From the IMG/VR virus record IMGVR_UViG_3300024341_000014, positions 1-29,144 of that record: a DNA stretch of 29,144 nt; one strand, written 5' to 3'. This document shows positions 2,690 through 20,198 of the stretch, piece after piece. Numbering within the stretch: position 1 is the first letter of the stretch; every line of letters begins with the position of its first letter. The notes beneath the pieces were generated by a model. That model saw only the letters and a program-made list of their open reading frames with translations, made no database searches and was not told the DNA's origin. The translations under genes were made by a program, and so were the position numbers. This stretch comes from a virus.

Positions 2690-3373
2690 TTGACCAGGAT
2701 CAATAAGCGAACAAAATCGAAACCTCATCAGGACGACCGCGCCTCCAAGCTCCGTCTCCTCCTCGACGCCGGGCAAGCGGCCAAAGCCCACATCTACCGA
2801 GATCTTCTCGCCAAGATCGAGGCAAAACAAACCCTCAAGCCATCCGAGATCCGGGCGCTCGCATCTCTTGAACGAGAAATCGAGGCAGAACTTTCCGGAG
2901 GATCGCAAAGCGACACAGGGAAGCACACCTATGACCAGGCCGCTACCTACTGCGGCTTCTCAAAGCGAACTCTCAATTGGCATGTGTCGAGGGGGAATCT
3001 CAAGCAGGGGCCGGACGGGAAATTCGATGAGACCGAGCTCGATCGTTTTCTCACAGCCAAGGGGCGCAAGGGCGGCGGCGGCACAGCCAAGGAGCGGGCC
3101 GACCTCCGTTACAAGCTCGCCCGCGCACGGCGAGAGGAAATGCTCGTGGCGCAACTCAAGGGTACGCTCATCGACCGATCTACAGCAGAAAAGCTCTGGT
3201 CGGACCGGGCTCATGAACTGGCCAAGTCCCTATTCATGCTCTCGCGCACCATCGGTCACCAGGTAGCGGCGGCGAGCGAGCAGAAACTCGCGGATGTCAT
3301 GGCGATCATAGACGCCCGGGTCAAGGAAATGGTGCTTACTTACTCAAGGCCGGCTGATGGGATAGAAGGGTGA
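2690..3373 (+). CDS. terminase small subunit (Nu1-like)
   Basis: The 227-residue protein is the likely DNA-recognition subunit of the packaging motor. Residues about 82-125 form a helix-turn-helix unit (YDQAATYCGFSKRTLNWHVS, then LKQGPDGKFDETELDRFL), as in lambda Nu1-type proteins. The rest is helical and charged (ERADLRYKLARARREEMLVA and onward), as expected for oligomerisation and large-subunit contact. The TTG start at 2690 sits in a TTGA overlap with an upstream stop and follows GGAG by a few bases. The large subunit follows 1.5 kb downstream, separated by two unknown genes and two repeat arrays, which is unusual because the two subunits are normally adjacent. Confidence 0.78.
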   Translation: MTRINKRTKSKPHQDDRASKLRLLLDAGQAAKAHIYRDLLAKIEAKQTLKPSEIRALASLEREIEAELSGGSQSDTGKHTYDQAATYCGFSKRTLNWHVSRGNLKQGPDGKFDETELDRFLTAKGRKGGGGTAKERADLRYKLARARREEMLVAQLKGTLIDRSTAEKLWSDRAHELAKSLFMLSRTIGHQVAAASEQKLADVMAIIDARVKEMVLTYSRPADGIEG

Positions 3374-3378
3374 AAGTG

Positions 3379-3523
3379 TGGCGCGGCTGGGCGGGGCATG
3401 GCCTGGCATGGCCTGGCGTGGCCTGGCGTGGCGGGGCACGGCGTGGCAAGGCGCGGCGAGGCATGGCAAGGCCGGGCACGGCGTGGCAGGGCGCGGCGAG
3501 GCATGGCGAGGCGGGGCTAGGCA
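3379..3523 (+). repeat. G-rich pentanucleotide array 1 (29 units of NGGCN)
   Basis: Twenty-nine consecutive five-base units fit NGGCN with no interruption; only the first and last base of each unit vary. The array starts six bases after the terS stop and runs into AGGGG and a palindrome. The G-rich strand is the coding strand. A reading frame stays open through it from GTG 3378, but its Arg/Gly/Ala-rich translation is a by-product of the repeat, and the next gene has its own ribosome site. The function is unknown. Confidence 0.92.
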
Positions 3524-3526
3524 AGG

Positions 3527-3539
3527 GGACCAATGGTCC
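3527..3539. promoter_or_regulatory. palindrome GGACCAATGGTCC after array 1
   Basis: A perfect 13-base palindrome (six-base arms around a central A) directly follows the array. It is part of a 25-base block (3519-3543) repeated exactly at 4354-4378. The Shine-Dalgarno of the next gene begins eight bases later. It could be an operator or a small RNA hairpin near the 5' end of the message. Confidence 0.6.
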
Positions 3540-3560
3540 ATAATTCAAAGGAGGATGAAG

Positions 3561-4211
3561 ATGAAAACGGCAAAGGTCAAGATCACTGGTGCAACACCTC
3601 TGTTGATGCATGCGGACAGCATCGAATGGGCTGACAGAATGGAGGAATGGAAGAACGATCCGAAGAACAAGAAGATGTCGAAAGCCGGAGACGATAGAAC
3701 CCCGCCATGGCGCTGGATCGGGTGTCTCAATCATGACGGCAAGGTGATCACGATTCCAAATGAGTACATCATGGCATGCATCATGAGGGCGGCAGCACAG
3801 ATCCCGACCGGACGGGGCAAGGGCACCTTCAAATCTCAGAGCCAAAGCGGGCTTCTCTGCCAGGACTTCCATTGGCCTCTTCTTGTCGATGGCGGGACTA
3901 TCTCTATGGGCGATATCAACGATATGCAGGATCTCGATACGTTCAAGGACAACCAAGAGGCGGCCGCAGCCCTCGGTATCACCCTTTTCACCAAGCGGGC
4001 CAAGATCGGCGCATCAAAGCATATCCGCGTTCGTCCGCGCTTCGATAACTGGAGTACGGAAGGAACGCTGTCGATTCTAGATGAGCAGATCAGCACGAAG
4101 ATCATCGAACAGATTTTCGAGATCGGCGGGCGATACATCGGCCTCGGAGACTGGCGGCCAGGCGGGAAGACTCCGGGGCCGTTCGGAATGTTTGAGGCTC
4201 AGGTTATTTGA
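3561..4211 (+). CDS. conserved-type phage protein of unknown function
   Basis: The protein is 216 residues. AAAGGAGG lies six bases before ATG 3561, which decides the start against the much longer frame that reads back through the repeat array. Visible landmarks are an N-terminal VKITGATPLLMH, a central ITIPNEYIMACIMRAAAQI, a later IRVRPRFDNWSTEGTL, and a Gly-rich C-terminal loop GLGDWRPGGKTPGPFGMFE. From memory, proteins of this pattern occur in other phage genomes without a known role; I could not look this up. The layout (TPLLMH strand, IPxxxI helix, Gly-rich loop near the end) loosely recalls RAMP-type RNA-binding proteins, which is speculation. It lies between the two pentanucleotide arrays and the two terminase genes. 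Confidence 0.75.
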   Translation: MKTAKVKITGATPLLMHADSIEWADRMEEWKNDPKNKKMSKAGDDRTPPWRWIGCLNHDGKVITIPNEYIMACIMRAAAQIPTGRGKGTFKSQSQSGLLCQDFHWPLLVDGGTISMGDINDMQDLDTFKDNQEAAAALGITLFTKRAKIGASKHIRVRPRFDNWSTEGTLSILDEQISTKIIEQIFEIGGRYIGLGDWRPGGKTPGPFGMFEAQVI

Positions 4212-4223
4212 TCGGCTCGGATG

Positions 4224-4358
4224 CGGCTAGGCTTGGCAAGGTCGGGTTAGGTCTGGCATGCCATGGTTGGGTTCGGCGAGGCGCGGTGAGGCTTGGCGCG
4301 GCTGGGCGCGGCGAGGCGGGGCGAGGCGCGGCGGGGCCTGGCAAGGCCTGGCAAGGCA
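4224..4358 (+). repeat. G-rich pentanucleotide array 2 (27 units, partly decayed)
   Basis: Twenty-seven units keep the same five-base phase. The half nearest the palindrome is almost all NGGCN. The upstream half contains variants such as GGGTT, AGGTC, TGGTT and TGCCA. An out-of-phase CGGCT at 4213 suggests the array once began right after the stop of the preceding gene. The gradient suggests decay at one end or renewal at the other. Confidence 0.88.
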
Positions 4359-4361
4359 AGG

Positions 4362-4374
4362 GGACCAATGGTCC
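4362..4374. promoter_or_regulatory. palindrome GGACCAATGGTCC after array 2
   Basis: This is identical in sequence and in position relative to its array to the one at 3527. The shared block ends at ATAA, after which the sequences diverge until each gene's ribosome site (here AAAGGGGG). The exact repetition in front of two unrelated genes argues that array plus palindrome is one functional unit. Confidence 0.6.
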
Positions 4375-4393
4375 ATAACGAAAGGGGGAAAAG

Positions 4394-4894
4394 ATGGAGA
4401 CAAAGAACTATGCGGCAATCTATAAAAGAGGGCTTCCCTATGAACCAGATGTGCGAAAGCTTGAAGAAACATTCCCATCACCCGAGGAAGGCCGGGTGAT
4501 CACAAACGATGAGCTAAAATCAGTTCTGGGTTTGGATCGAGTAGAAGGAAGGCTCAACGCGGTTGTGAATTCATGGCGAAAAAGGATGATGCGTCAAGGA
4601 ATTCACATGCAGTGGGTTCCAGGGATTGGGCTCGAAATTCTATCTCCGGCTCAAGCACAAGAGGCAGTCAGAAAGAGAATGGGAAAATCAGAGCGCCAAT
4701 TGAATCGTGGCATCGAACAACATTCCTTCGTTGACAGAAGCAGATTGGACACCGTTCGACAGAAGGTATTTGATAACGAAACAATCGCGTATGCAAAGCG
4801 GAAGCTCATTTTCAGAGAAACAAACAAGGATCTTGCGATAGGTTGCCCGAAAGTAATCAGTCTGCCGAGACCGAAGAACGCAGCGGCCAAATGA
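4394..4894 (+). CDS. phage protein of unknown function (166 aa)
   Basis: ATG 4394 follows AAAGGGGG with normal spacing. The protein is basic and mostly helical, with no membrane segment. Residues 20-110 (LEETFPSPEEGRVITNDELK, then VEGRLNAVVNSWRKRMMRQG, then a WVPGIGLEIL strand) look like a compact domain in which a helical DNA-binding unit is possible but not demonstrated. The C-terminal part (HSFVDRSRLDTVRQKVFDNE and onward) is charged. I do not recognise a named family. The stop overlaps the terminase start by four bases, so it is translated together with the large terminase, and it is the second gene headed by an array-palindrome unit. A packaging or early regulatory role is possible from position only. 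Confidence 0.72.
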   Translation: METKNYAAIYKRGLPYEPDVRKLEETFPSPEEGRVITNDELKSVLGLDRVEGRLNAVVNSWRKRMMRQGIHMQWVPGIGLEILSPAQAQEAVRKRMGKSERQLNRGIEQHSFVDRSRLDTVRQKVFDNETIAYAKRKLIFRETNKDLAIGCPKVISLPRPKNAAAK

Positions 4895-6861
4895 TCTGCT
4901 CCCTTCCCACATCCTGGCTCGATGATCCGGCACAGGCGCTTGCATGGACGCCTTCGGAGCCGATCACATGGACCGCGGCCGAACGCGACGCCTTCCGCCC
5001 GCCTCCGGACATGACCGTCTCCGAATGGGCGGACGCGAACAGAATCCTTGCCTCCGGATACTCGCGACAGCCCGGGCCCTGGCGCACAAGCCTAACCCCA
5101 TATCTCCGTGAGGTGATGGACGCATTCTGTCTCCCGCACATCCGGCATATCGTACTCTGCTTCGGGACCCAACTCGGCAAGACGGAATCCCTGCTCAACA
5201 TGCTCGGCTACACGATCGATCAGGAACCATACCCAACGCTCTGGATCTACCCGCGCGAGGACGACGCGAAGAGCGTAAGCCGCACCCGCTTTCGGGCCTC
5301 TCTCCATTCCTGCCCGTCGATCGCCGGCAAGATGCCGGAGACGCGCGAAGGGCTTCAACTCCTTGAGATGCAATTTCCGGGGATGCCCCTCTGGCTGGCC
5401 GGGGCGAACTCGGCGGCCGGGCTCTCGCAGAAGGCGTGTCGCAACGTCTTCCGCGATGAGATCGACAAGTACCCACTTCGGGTTGGGGACGATGCGGATC
5501 CGCTATCTCTGTCCGAGGAGCGGGCCAAGAGCTTCTGGGACATCCGGAAAATCGTAGATGTATCGAGTCCGACGCTTGAGGAACGCGGCATCTGGCGACA
5601 GTTGCAGGCATGCGATGCGATCCTTCATTTCCGCGTCCAATGCCCGTTCTGTGGGCTTCCCCAAAAGCTGGAATTCCTGCAAGTGAAATGGGACAAACCA
5701 GAGAGCAAGGATGCTCCGCTCAAAGAAAGGATCCGTGTTTGCCGAGAGACAGCTGAATATCAATGTGAGAACTGCGGGAAGACGATAGGCGATGATTACA
5801 AGCAGGCGATGCTCGCCTCCGGTCGGTGGGACTTTCAAGAATCGGTGGACCTGAAATCCGTGGGCTTTCACCTCTCCTCTCTTTACAGCCCATGGCTCAC
5901 ATGGGGAGACGTGGCCGAGGTCTTCCTTGAGGCTACGGATGCCGAAACCGGGAGCCGAGAGAAACTTCAGAACTTCAAAAACGGCTGGCTCGCGGAACCG
6001 TGGGTTGATCGGGCTGAGACAATGAAGGAGGAAGCAATCCTCGCTCACCGCGTATCGATCGCTCCCCTGATAGCGCCCGAGGGCACCATAGCGCTGACGG
6101 CCGGCGTGGACATGCAGAAATATGGTTTCTGGTTCACTGTCTGGGCGTGGAGCCGTGGACTCGATTCCCATCTCGTGAGTTACGGCTACCTCCCGGATTG
6201 GGAGGACGTGCAGGAGATGATCTTCGCCGCCGAATGCCGCATTGACGGGTCAGAGCACACTATGGGCATTTGGCGCGCCGCACTCGATACCGGGGGCGGA
6301 GAATCGGCCGATGGACCATGGTCTAGGACAGAGGAAGCCTATGCTTGGCTCCGGCAACATGGACGCCGTCGGATCTGGGGAGCTCGCGGCATCAGCCGGA
6401 ACACAACCGGGGCTCGCATCCGTCACACCATAATCGACAAGATGCCGGGCAAGGGGAATCAGCCCATCCCCGGGGGCCTCATCCTTTGGCTGATCGATAG
6501 CGACCAAATGAAGGACACATTCTTCTGGCGGCTCGATCAAGGGGCGCAGGGTCCGCAGAAGATCACGCTCCATTCGGAGACCGGGGAGGATTTTGCCAGG
6601 CAGATCCTCGCCGAAGAGAAGCGGAGAACGCGGCATGGGACATGGGAATGGGTGCAGGTGCGACGAGATAATCATCTGCTTGACGCCTCGCTCCTCGCCC
6701 ATGCATGCGCTGATCCGCAATGGGCTGGGGGCTTGCGAGGCAGAGGCGCGACATCGCGGCAGGCCGATCCAGGGCCCAAGTCACAAGAAACACAGAGCCG
6801 CAAGCCCGAGAAGAAATCATGGATGCCTCAACAATCAAACTGGCTTGGGGGAAGAAGATGA
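4891..6861 (+). CDS. terminase large subunit (GpA family)
   Basis: This is the ATPase and nuclease of the packaging motor. It has TVSEWADANRIL near the N terminus, a Walker A-like GTQLGKT (residues 92-98) and Walker B VFRDEIDKYP (186-195). Two Cys pairs (CPFCG and CENCG) form a zinc-binding insertion typical of this family. The C-terminal nuclease is marked by GVDMQKYGFWFTVWAW, AALDTGGG and DNHLLDASLLAHA. ATG 4891 is chosen for its ATGA overlap with the previous gene; TTG 4843 would add 16 residues. The length (656) is close to lambda gpA (641). The stop overlaps the next start by four bases. Confidence 0.95.
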   Translation: MICSLPTSWLDDPAQALAWTPSEPITWTAAERDAFRPPPDMTVSEWADANRILASGYSRQPGPWRTSLTPYLREVMDAFCLPHIRHIVLCFGTQLGKTESLLNMLGYTIDQEPYPTLWIYPREDDAKSVSRTRFRASLHSCPSIAGKMPETREGLQLLEMQFPGMPLWLAGANSAAGLSQKACRNVFRDEIDKYPLRVGDDADPLSLSEERAKSFWDIRKIVDVSSPTLEERGIWRQLQACDAILHFRVQCPFCGLPQKLEFLQVKWDKPESKDAPLKERIRVCRETAEYQCENCGKTIGDDYKQAMLASGRWDFQESVDLKSVGFHLSSLYSPWLTWGDVAEVFLEATDAETGSREKLQNFKNGWLAEPWVDRAETMKEEAILAHRVSIAPLIAPEGTIALTAGVDMQKYGFWFTVWAWSRGLDSHLVSYGYLPDWEDVQEMIFAAECRIDGSEHTMGIWRAALDTGGGESADGPWSRTEEAYAWLRQHGRRRIWGARGISRNTTGARIRHTIIDKMPGKGNQPIPGGLILWLIDSDQMKDTFFWRLDQGAQGPQKITLHSETGEDFARQILAEEKRRTRHGTWEWVQVRRDNHLLDASLLAHACADPQWAGGLRGRGATSRQADPGPKSQETQSRKPEKKSWMPQQSNWLGGRR

Positions 6862-15591: not shown

Positions 15592-16488
15592 ATGAAGGCT
15601 GCCGTCTTCAGCATGCAAGCCAACTGGTCCGGGCGCGAGGTCCGAGAGGCTATCCGGAAGGGTCTTGATCGCAGGGGCTACCCAACGTCCCTCCGAAGTC
15701 TTGAAGATCCAGGGCTTGACGATTGGGATGTTGCCGCGGTCTGGGGCTTTCGTCCTCCGATCCCGGAGTATGTTTCGAAGTGGGTCTCTGCCGGGCGTCG
15801 CGTCTTCGTCTGCGAACTTGGGCATCTGAGGCGCGCCAAGGCCCGTTTTCACCCGGACGGCCGGTTTGAGCGCTTGCATGATCAAGATGCCTATTATCAA
15901 TTCGGCATCGGGAAACTGAACTGGCTCCCCCCTCCCCTATCGTGCCTATCCGATCGTTTTGACGCTCTGGCTATCGATCGCGCGACCTGCCCGCAACAGA
16001 CTGGAGACATGGTGCTGATCGCCGGGCAAACGGTAGGCGATGCCTCCCACAACGTGGGATTCCGTGACATGGTCGCATGGACCGGGAAGACCGTGGAGGC
16101 CGTGCGCTCCTCCACCTCGCGCAAGCTCGCCTTCCGGCCGCACCCGAAACAGGCGCTTTCGATCAAGGACGGCCCCCTCGTGCGTCCGATCGGCGTCGAC
16201 GAATACCGGAACCCGGTTAACCCACTGTCGAATGACCTCAAGGACTCTTGGGCCATGGTCACGATCTGCTCGACATCCGGCCAGGAGGCACTGCTCTCCG
16301 GGATCCCCGTCTTCTGCGAGCCGTGGGCAATCTACTCTGAGGTTGCGAACATGGATCTTCGAAAACTCGACTCTCCGGAATGGAAGGATACCTCCGACTA
16401 TTTCAACCGGCTGGCCTATGCACAATGGACGATTCTCGAGATTTCTGACGGCATACCCTTCGAATTCTTGAGCGGATTTCCAAACTGA
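15592..16488 (+). CDS. glycosyltransferase-like (capsule-polysaccharide-synthesis type) protein
   Basis: The 298-residue protein starts after a GAGGTGG site. The N-terminal half has a Rossmann-like outline (VAAVWGF, then RVFVCELGHL). The second half holds VLIAGQTVGDASH, RKLAFRPHPKQ, VTICSTSGQEALLSGIPVF and RLAYAQWTILEISDG. These resemble the GT-B nucleotide-sugar domain of capsule polysaccharide synthesis proteins: RPHP, then ST-G-EAL--GIPV. It could modify host surface sugars or virion proteins. The gene interrupts the tube-to-chaperone order, so it looks like an acquired cargo gene. Bases 15976-16019 recur, 41/44 identical, at 2382-2425. Substrate and activity are unknown. Confidence 0.68.
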   Translation: MKAAVFSMQANWSGREVREAIRKGLDRRGYPTSLRSLEDPGLDDWDVAAVWGFRPPIPEYVSKWVSAGRRVFVCELGHLRRAKARFHPDGRFERLHDQDAYYQFGIGKLNWLPPPLSCLSDRFDALAIDRATCPQQTGDMVLIAGQTVGDASHNVGFRDMVAWTGKTVEAVRSSTSRKLAFRPHPKQALSIKDGPLVRPIGVDEYRNPVNPLSNDLKDSWAMVTICSTSGQEALLSGIPVFCEPWAIYSEVANMDLRKLDSPEWKDTSDYFNRLAYAQWTILEISDGIPFEFLSGFPN

Positions 16489-17596: not shown

Positions 17597-20198
17597 GGTC
17601 GTAATCGAACTCGAAACCAAGGATAACGCGACCGCCGTCTTTCTGCGCGGCATCAGCGGCATGAAGCTTGGCCTTGCCGATCTGGAGAAGATGGCTGGCC
17701 AAAGCCTCGGCCGAACCAGCGCAGGCCTTAAGGAACTCGGCGGCGCGGCGGCCTTCATGGGCGGCCAGACCGGGAAGACCTTCGAGCGTCTTACGTCCGG
17801 ATGGATGAAATTCGGAACGGTGCTAGCCGTCGGGTACGCGGTCAAGTCCGCCGTCTCAGGGATCTGGGATCTGCATAAGGAAATCACGGCGCTCGTTGAT
17901 GGTACCGCAGATTTTGCCGGGCGCATCGGCATATCCGTCGAGGCCCTTTCGAAACTCGACTATGCCGCGAAGATGACGGACGCCGGGGTTGAGACGCTTC
18001 ATTCGTCCCTCCAGAAGATGGCCCGCAGCATCTCGGAAGCAGCCCAGGGCATGGGGAAGGCCAAGGATGCATTCAAGGCCCTGGGGCTCGATATCGCGAA
18101 GCTCGCCGTCGAAAAACCAGACCAACAGTTCATGGACATCGTCCGGGCAATGGAGCGAGTCGGCAATCAGGGCGACCGGGTTCGCCTGGCATTCCAGATT
18201 TTCGGCAAGGGCTCCGGGCCGCTCGTCCAGATGTTGAACGAGGGGACCAGGGGTCTGAACCGCTTCTTCGACGAAGCTGAAAAGAGCGGGAACGTCATCG
18301 GCGCGGAGATGGCTGAGAACGCGGAGAAGGCCGAAGAAGCGATGAAGCGATTGGATGCGGCGGTCTTGGGGCTGAAGATCCAGTTTGCACAGGGGCTAAG
18401 CCCTGCCATTACTGGGATCATCGAAGATCTGACAATGCTTCTTGTTACGTTTGAGAAGGGGATCGCGTTGATTTTGGGAGAGGCAATTCCCGCAGCACTC
18501 GAAAAACTAAAGGGGAATTACCGTCGGACTATTGAAGGACTGAGACAGGAACAGGCGTGGGGAAATCTTGGGCTCCCGCCATCATGGGCGGAAAGGATAG
18601 GGCTCGGCCCCATACAGGCAGAGAGAGGTGTTGGACCGGAACGCCCTGAGATGCCACGATTCAATTGGCGCTCTGAGACAGAGGCGAAGCAATTACCCCC
18701 TCTTCCTTTGGTCATGACTAAAGAGCAAGAAAAGGCCCTCAAGAAATACGAGGACCTCCACCGAGAGGTAACCGAGCAGATCGCGGCTCTCACCCAAGGC
18801 GAATTCGAGGGCAAGCGCGAGAAGCTTCGGCAATGGCTTGCCGAAGCCGAGAAGACATACAAGGCCGCCGGGAAGCCCATCGAGGAACTTAAGCGAAATG
18901 CAGAGCTCCAGTTCGATGAAATCGGCCGGGCGGAGCGAACGAGCATCCTCGACAAGTCCGTGAGCCTCTATGATGAACTGGCCAAAAACCAGTCTTCCAC
19001 CGTCGCCGATCTCCGGAATCTCTGGGATGCCTATGCTAAATGGCGCTTGGAGAAGATCGAGGCAGAGGCAGCGGCCCTCCGAAAGCAGGAGGTCCCCGAG
19101 GGGGTTGTTTATGCCGTGACCGCGGCCCGAAGGATGGAGGTTGAGGCGGAGCCGCAACGAGAGATCCGGGACAAGTCCGTGAGCCTCTACGAGGAGATTT
19201 TCCGGCAGCAATCAACGAAGGCCACTCAGTTGAGCGGCCTCTGGGAGCAGTATAAGACTCTCCGCCTGCGGCAGATCGAGGAGGAGGCCGACAGGCTTCG
19301 AAAGCTCGGGGTTGCCGAAGACCTCGTGACGGCCGCCGTCGAAGCCCAGAAGAAGGCGCTTGATCGGGGTCTTGAACCCCGTCGCGGGACTCGCGAATGG
19401 ATCGATATGCGGATGGAGGAGGTCCGGAAAGGCGGGGCGAGGGACAAGGAACTCGACCGGTCTCGACGCGAGATGGAACTTCAATATGCCGAAGAACTCG
19501 GGATCGGACGCGGACGCGGCGCCCGCATGGGGCTGGAGCAGTTCACCGACGATCTCGGGACGCAGGCCTCGAGATGGGCAGATATCTCTCGTGGGGCGGC
19601 GGAGTCAATCACCGGCTCGATGGGCGATGCCTTCTCAGACATGATCCTCGGTACGAAATCCGTGTCAGAGGCCTTTGCCGAGATGGCAAATCAAATCATA
19701 GCCGACATCACCAGGATAATGATTCGCAAGGCAATAGTCGAACCGATTGCCGGCGGCATCCTCGGAGCCTTCGGCATCGGGCATGAAGGCGGGACGATCT
19801 CGACCGAAGGTATTGAACGATTCCATGCCGGAGGCAAGCTCGGTCCCCGTGAGCGGGTGATCATCGTTGAGATGGACGAGGTGGTCATCCGTAAGGAGGC
19901 GGCCCGAAAAATCCCGCGCTCCTTCTGGGAGGGGATAAATCGCATGCACGAGGGCGGGTTTGTCGGCGGATCGCCCAGACCGTTCATCATGCATTCAGGA
20001 GGGCCGATTCCCCAGGAACCTCAACGCGCTTCCGGGGAACAACCAAAGATCCAGATCAACATGGTGAACAAGAGCGGGGTTCCTCTCCAGGCCGAAGCCG
20101 GAGACATTCGGTTCGACGGACGCGGGTATGTGGCCGATGTGTGGCTCGATCTCTACCACAATAACCGGGGCTTCCGCCAATCCATCGGGAGGAGATGA
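17586..20198 (+). CDS. tape measure protein
   Basis: The 870-residue protein is the longest tail gene after the J-like one and directly follows the chaperone pair. The N-terminal 200 residues have the usual tape measure pattern, with hydrophobic helices (WMKFGTVLAVGYAVKSAVSG). The next region (DFAGRIGISVEALSKLDYAA, then RAMERVGNQGDRVRLAFQIF) and its FGKGSGPLVQML resemble the common tail length domain. The middle is long coiled coil containing a 73-residue tandem repeat. Near the C terminus are hydrophobic stretches (AGGILGAFGIG) and Gly/His-rich HEGG motifs. Using the known rough scale of 0.15 nm per residue, a tail near 130 nm is predicted. Confidence 0.88.
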   Translation: MSNKVVIELETKDNATAVFLRGISGMKLGLADLEKMAGQSLGRTSAGLKELGGAAAFMGGQTGKTFERLTSGWMKFGTVLAVGYAVKSAVSGIWDLHKEITALVDGTADFAGRIGISVEALSKLDYAAKMTDAGVETLHSSLQKMARSISEAAQGMGKAKDAFKALGLDIAKLAVEKPDQQFMDIVRAMERVGNQGDRVRLAFQIFGKGSGPLVQMLNEGTRGLNRFFDEAEKSGNVIGAEMAENAEKAEEAMKRLDAAVLGLKIQFAQGLSPAITGIIEDLTMLLVTFEKGIALILGEAIPAALEKLKGNYRRTIEGLRQEQAWGNLGLPPSWAERIGLGPIQAERGVGPERPEMPRFNWRSETEAKQLPPLPLVMTKEQEKALKKYEDLHREVTEQIAALTQGEFEGKREKLRQWLAEAEKTYKAAGKPIEELKRNAELQFDEIGRAERTSILDKSVSLYDELAKNQSSTVADLRNLWDAYAKWRLEKIEAEAAALRKQEVPEGVVYAVTAARRMEVEAEPQREIRDKSVSLYEEIFRQQSTKATQLSGLWEQYKTLRLRQIEEEADRLRKLGVAEDLVTAAVEAQKKALDRGLEPRRGTREWIDMRMEEVRKGGARDKELDRSRREMELQYAEELGIGRGRGARMGLEQFTDDLGTQASRWADISRGAAESITGSMGDAFSDMILGTKSVSEAFAEMANQIIADITRIMIRKAIVEPIAGGILGAFGIGHEGGTISTEGIERFHAGGKLGPRERVIIVEMDEVVIRKEAARKIPRSFWEGINRMHEGGFVGGSPRPFIMHSGGPIPQEPQRASGEQPKIQINMVNKSGVPLQAEAGDIRFDGRGYVADVWLDLYHNNRGFRQSIGRR
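18951..19388 (+). repeat. 73-residue tandem repeat within the tape measure gene
   Basis: Two units start with DKSVSLY at 18951 and 19170, a period of 219 bases. The first 20 bases (GACAAGTCCGTGAGCCTCTA) are identical. Both continue with a WxxYxxxRLxxIExEAxxLRK pattern before diverging. Such units change tail length in whole steps. Confidence 0.75.

Follow-up and report, generated by a model that had tools for sequence, protein, structure and literature searches.

What do two long GGC pentanucleotide arrays do between the terminase genes of a phage? The window, that is, the whole 29,144-nucleotide stretch analysed here, is an IMG/VR virus fragment that carries portal, capsid and tail genes besides terminase. 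An earlier note had suggested that its arrays form a cis element preceding two genes with no relation to each other. We conclude with high confidence that the locus is a VIPR system and that the arrays are genes of trans-acting guide RNAs (vrRNAs). VIPR (Viral Interference Programmable Repeat), described in a bioRxiv preprint of April 2026, comprises a RAMP protein (Vipr), vrRNAs of alternating GGY and NN with a structured 3' tail, and a vap accessory gene; it reads double-stranded DNA in a gapped manner with a one-base skip, and is deployed against competing phages (PMC13142463). Array, hairpin tail, vipr and vap each have a counterpart in the window, and the locus joins this already described kind of system rather than forming a new kind. 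The locus and its neighbours are listed below.

2690-3373, + strand: terminase small subunit (phrog_57, E 2.6e-12), upstream neighbour outside the system
3380-3524, + strand: repeat tract of predicted vrRNA 1, 29 GGC-NN units (GGC in 29/29, NN mixed)
3525-3543, + strand: 3' tail of predicted vrRNA 1, made of GG, the hairpin GGACC-AAT-GGTCC (3527-3539) and ATAA, within a 25-base block (3519-3543)
3561-4211, + strand: vipr, encoding a predicted 216-aa RAMP (Cas7-like) protein, phrog_4652; ribosome site at 3550-3554
4225-4359, + strand: repeat tract of predicted vrRNA 2, 27 units, 26/27 GGY-NN (20 GGC, 6 GGT; one GCC)
4360-4378, + strand: 3' tail of predicted vrRNA 2, as in vrRNA 1, with GG, hairpin (4362-4374) and ATAA, within a 25-base block (4354-4378)
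4394-4894, + strand: vap1-like gene, 166 aa; a winged-helix domain is predicted ahead of a long helical hairpin
4843-6861, + strand: terminase large subunit (phrog_15, E 4e-161), downstream neighbour outside the system; its true start probably lies 3' of 4843, since 4843 overlaps the vap gene

Array anatomy and the genes beside the arrays

The unit consensus across both window arrays is GGY-NN. Array 1 consists of 29 successive GGCNN units with zero interruptions, so the earlier count of 29 NGGCN units is exact, whereas the count of 27 for array 2 is slightly generous in view of its GGT and GCC units. Such repeats had been said to be missing from the rest of the window and to be beyond chance. 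Indeed, a scan of both strands found no further GGC array of at least four units, and 29 in-phase GGC would be expected in the window's base composition with a probability below 1e-40 by arithmetic. Rfam and Pfam searches gave no family for the arrays, and BLAST against named phages and plasmids gave zero matches, which is expected because NN is free. In array 1, GGC is constant and NN is near random (in order, GC TG GG AT CT AT CT GT CT GT GG AC GT AA GC GA AT AA CG AC GT AG GC GA AT GA GG TA AA), indicating that the array is not the slippage of a single unit. An inner duplication of 8 units (40 bases) was found in this array; its copies are 85% alike and differ in the NN letters only, the pattern that retained GGC and free NN would produce.

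Both arrays close with the same 25-base block, AGGCAAGGGGACCAATGGTCCATAA, at 3519-3543 and 4354-4378, as previously observed. Within it, GGACCAATGGTCC (3527-3539 and 4362-4374) gives a 5-bp stem with an AAT loop, the only structure predicted in the window tails by a folding program that is blind to pseudoknots. Two arrays with the same hairpin tail are in line with the functional unit that had been proposed to be duplicated here.

The gene at 3561-4211 belongs to phrog_4652, annotated as 'unknown function', and a Pfam search with its product found no family. A profile built from 78 family members strongly matched one solved protein, PDB 36pp 'SUSP1 Vipr protein' (E 4.5e-39), which the window protein alone also matched (phmmer, E 1.3e-10). 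For its AlphaFold2 model (pLDDT 93.8), the Foldseek matches at E below 0.001 were Cas7-type subunits of type III and VII complexes, and VIA-align matched Cas7/Csm3 with Z up to 11.9 over 160 residues, the fold matches spanning residues 1-216. Conserved residues of the family near the C-terminus are G190, G194, G196, R199 and G209. Judged by sequence and model, the product is a Vipr homologue, with the predicted RRM core and glycine-rich loop of a RAMP protein. In a maximum-likelihood tree it groups with the Viprs of L263, L264, L073, L101 and L096 (100/100), and this group is sister (support 92/95) to the one holding SUSP1 and most vap1-like loci.

A triplet read every five RNA bases is also known from TRAP, the trp RNA-binding attenuation protein, which binds NAGNN repeats; the read-out is alike, but TRAP is not a relative, the fold of Vipr being that of a RAMP protein. 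Ideas of TRAP-like ring binding, a G-quadruplex, an R-loop, a Chi-like site or an origin were set aside upon recognition of Vipr.

For the gene at 4394-4894, a Pfam search found no family and BLAST among named phages no match. Direct hhalign comparison of its family to SUSP1 vap1, taken from the SUSP1 record, gave 89.5% (E 2e-6), and profile comparison via an intermediate family gave 94.7% and 98.7%. Homologues adjoin arrays in L263 (36%), L073 and L244. The protein model (pLDDT 85) has two long helices after a winged helix, with OmpR-type DNA-binding domains as the nearest folds, though in weak matches. These profile comparisons identify the gene as a remote homologue of SUSP1 vap1. DNA-binding Vap proteins are reported for types II, VI and VII, with vap1 the type II one, which fits the predicted winged-helix Vap of the window (PMC13142463). 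The two genes behind the arrays, earlier supposed to be unrelated, are best read as partners of the arrays.

Arrays and Vipr in other contigs

Viral contigs were scanned for ten in-phase GGC by DNA pattern alone. At least 120 stretches were collected, bearing out an earlier impression that GGC pentamer tracts occur in other phages, and all proteins of these loci were clustered without prior expectation. Tabulating the genes near the arrays, as had been suggested, returned the family of 3561-4211 in 88/120 contigs among the matches listed (profile search); by BLAST, the same family was found in 84/122 loci among the matches listed, with a median distance to an array of 28 bases. For the reverse test, six close Viprs were used as queries, blind to arrays, and 80 loci were collected. 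Arrays were present in 79/80 of these contigs, with 318/318 arrays on the vipr strand; the set includes near-identical contigs, so these counts are not independent events and the list of distinct stems given below is the safer measure. In bacterial genomes, a 12-unit pattern found mostly pure short repeats and a few mixed-NN arrays; among bacterial contigs collected by the GGC pattern, the Vipr family occurred in 6/9 mixed-NN loci and in 0 of the others, and it was absent from 20 whole genomes with simple GGC repeats. The association is reciprocal: array and protein each predict the other, which provides an independent check of VIPR in environmental phages.

Across the collected arrays, the third base of the unit was C 4887 times, T 353 times and A or G 62 times, showing that units follow GGY. 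The earlier view that the arrays are not coding is supported by the collected loci, in which none of the 413 arrays counted in all lay inside a gene called by a codon-based caller, and 328 ran in the direction of both neighbouring genes (364 arrays had partial flank gene calls or stood at a contig edge). In 27 long contigs matching an 11-unit pattern, the matches were confined to one strand per contig, barring two pure GGCTC-type simple repeats. In other phages, 78% of 377 arrays had 9-16 units and 24 had 25 or more; long tracts are therefore a minority form that is not unique to the window. One tract spanned 142 units (L024:6301-7010), and those of L043, L069, L108 and L130 had 48-60, the reported range being 9-16. 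The NN letters were mixed in the pattern-collected viral arrays (L021-L140), although C was rare (12%) at the first of the two. In the same set, TA was the rarest pair against expectation (0.69), and AC and GG were also low; avoidance of TA would fit guides copying codon positions 1 and 2.

The terminal tails of Vipr-selected loci opened with GG in 200/222 cases, and a stem of at least 4 bp began exactly two bases past the last unit in 158/222, as against about 18/222 shuffled tails with any such hairpin at any offset. Dozens of distinct stems keep pairing (e.g., GAGCC/GGCTC, GCACC/GGTGC, GTCCC/GGGAC, GCTGC/GCAGC, GACC/GGTC). Stems vary even among the arrays of one phage (L343, L350 and L386), and the nearest relatives of the window have a hairpin at the same offset with other letters. 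Since the pairing is kept while the letters differ, it is the shape and register of the tail that are conserved and not its sequence, which sustains the earlier proposal that RNA structure is involved. A search for the array followed by the palindrome had also been proposed. Arrays with a hairpin at a fixed place were found in other contigs, but the palindrome in its exact letters is confined to this phage, its tail motif giving elsewhere three chance-like matches, all without arrays.

An alternative reading is that the arrays act mainly in cis, as 5' leaders of vipr and vap, with Vipr binding controlling its own operon and no DNA targeting. Each window array directly precedes a purine-rich ribosome site and an ATG (3561 and 4394), and a consensus search found no promoter or terminator of note beside the arrays, both of which suit a leader. 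Elsewhere, however, arrays lie 3' of vipr, in series of up to nine or more, where no gene follows that they could lead, and other contigs have arrays without a detectable vipr. In L082, six arrays (467-957) lie on the strand opposite to vipr, which requires the vrRNAs of that contig to be transcribed on their own. Hypervariable NN would not be needed in a leader, and SUSP1 makes its vrRNAs as discrete species of ~100 nt, which direct repression in trans (PMC13142463). We thus consider a mainly cis role improbable. A DNA-level signal, such as a packaging signal, replication origin or recombination site near the terminase genes, is suggested by the position of the window arrays between the small and large terminase genes and was among the earlier proposals. 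Yet the arrays of other phages sit in many places and track vipr, found in 88/120 loci, rather than a terminase-like family, found in 9 (both among the matches listed); in the Vipr-selected loci GGC lies on the vipr strand, and a hairpin that stays paired while its letters change is indicative of RNA, leaving this reading with hardly any credence. That the arrays are a functionless product of slippage or assembly is just as implausible, because, although the inner duplication in array 1 tells that duplication does occur, GGC is fixed and NN near random over hundreds of arrays, the simple slippage arrays of bacterial genomes lack vipr, many independent contigs carry the same design and the association tests refute the reading.

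Among the matches listed, 32/120 pattern-collected contigs were without vipr in the examined stretch. The whole records of these 32 contained vipr in two, one of them merely a fragment at a contig end, and four others (L070, L075, L112 and L113) are simple repeats. The remaining vipr-less contigs are orphan vrRNA candidates. Ten of them (L029, L037, L041, L050, L059, L071, L084, L092, L099 and L116) are viral contigs of 18-48 kb that carry mixed-NN GGC arrays and no detectable Vipr gene across the whole record. In L029, L041, L084, L105 and L116, the arrays are opposed to the neighbouring genes. The vipr-less contigs may be fragments, may encode a Vipr too divergent for the profile to detect, or may be satellites equipped with vrRNAs of their own, a class of element mentioned in the VIPR report (PMC13142463).

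Known systems, guide format and proposed action

Like the described systems, the window locus is phage-encoded and pairs a small RAMP protein with one small accessory gene, representing the minimal locus of vipr plus one vap; its GGY/NN tandem repeats, which specify RNA tracts with a structured 3' tail, occupy the gaps flanking vipr (PMC13142463). Different from them, its tracts are longer (29 and 27 units), and the letters of the hairpin tail vary between phages and between the arrays of one phage. The closest comparison is with the type II systems of SUSP1 and P. fulva, with which it shares a vap1 homologue and a sister position in the Vipr tree; the window tail, like that of Felixounavirus relatives, starts with GG followed by a stem. 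In contrast, the window Vipr is about 25% identical to theirs, its units are GGC as against mostly GGT, and type II vrRNAs have 9-16 repeats each (PMC13142463). The type II tail of the SUSP1 clade has a pseudoknot; for the window tail a simple hairpin is predicted, with no pseudoknot visible (the folding program does not model pseudoknots). We therefore file the locus as VIPR, type II-like, yet not as type II, because its unit numbers fall outside the reported range and the pseudoknot was not seen.

With class 1 CRISPR-Cas systems (Cas7, Csm3 and Cmr4 backbones), the locus shares the RAMP fold and, presumably, the arrangement of subunits as a backbone on a guide RNA; it differs in its five-base as opposed to six-base period and in its gapped NN code. 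No CRISPR repeat-spacer array was found in the window, and no cas match among the window genes scanned. VIPR was reported in April 2026 as a possible CRISPR ancestor (PMC13142463). Such systems are recognisable from raw sequence by the five-base period, and the sets collected here supply many new guide sequences and tail covariation, from which a consensus of the tail and a detector working on sequence could be derived.

RNA expression, binding, the one-base skip and repression come from work on SUSP1 and P. fulva (PMC13142463); by analogy, we infer expression, processing and competitors as targets for the present phage. Transcription would yield two vrRNAs, one spanning 3380 to roughly 3540 and the other 4225 to roughly 4375, both with a GGY-NN tract and a short hairpin tail. 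The single-domain Cas7-like Vipr may line up along the tract with about one subunit per five bases, holding the GGY bases and presenting the NN pairs to double-stranded DNA, where every NN pair would be matched and a single base left unread before the next pair. Once bound, the complex would block transcription of a competing phage, prophage or satellite, and the Vap1-like protein, which is predicted to bind DNA, probably adds to this block.

Targets were sought in viral contigs with four 8-unit stretches of the two arrays in the one-base-skip reading, matches being extended along the array. The 74 contig matches contained none that extended along the remaining array and nothing above chance; the best extension, in L341, agreed at 17/38 further positions, which is not convincing after 16 tries. 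Comparing all arrays with all collected loci at skips of 0-3 gave no excess for any skip length, the skip-1 count being inflated by contigs gathered with that very pattern. The targets probably lie in phages or prophages outside the collection, or the matches tolerate mismatches.

Tentatively, this VIPR branch may have a guide format of its own, in which the hairpin tail is conserved in shape and register and free in sequence even between the arrays of one phage, so that Vipr would recognise the GG-stem register and not a fixed tail, and in which tracts of 25 to 30 units would serve as long guides (75-90 base targets) or as two overlapping guides. If this holds, the understanding of how specificity and mismatch tolerance work would change.

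Other repeats in the window

Further repeats were observed. A perfect 74-base direct repeat (529-602 and 2584-2657) surrounds a DNA cytosine methyltransferase gene and a short Vsr-like frame (1821-2060), a region that looks like an inserted or duplicated cassette. The vap gene (4688-4714) and the tape-measure gene (18650-18676) share a perfect 27-base inverted match on opposite strands. A dispersed repeat of 45 bases, 93% identical, lies inside two unrelated reading frames (2381-2425 and 15975-16019), and the shorter repeat TCTGGGACCATTC occurs three times near the 2381-2425 copy. At the right contig end, 28753-29144 holds a near-perfect in-frame tandem copy of about 192 bases, which reflects either a tail-fibre-like gene with internal repeats or an effect of the assembly at the contig end.
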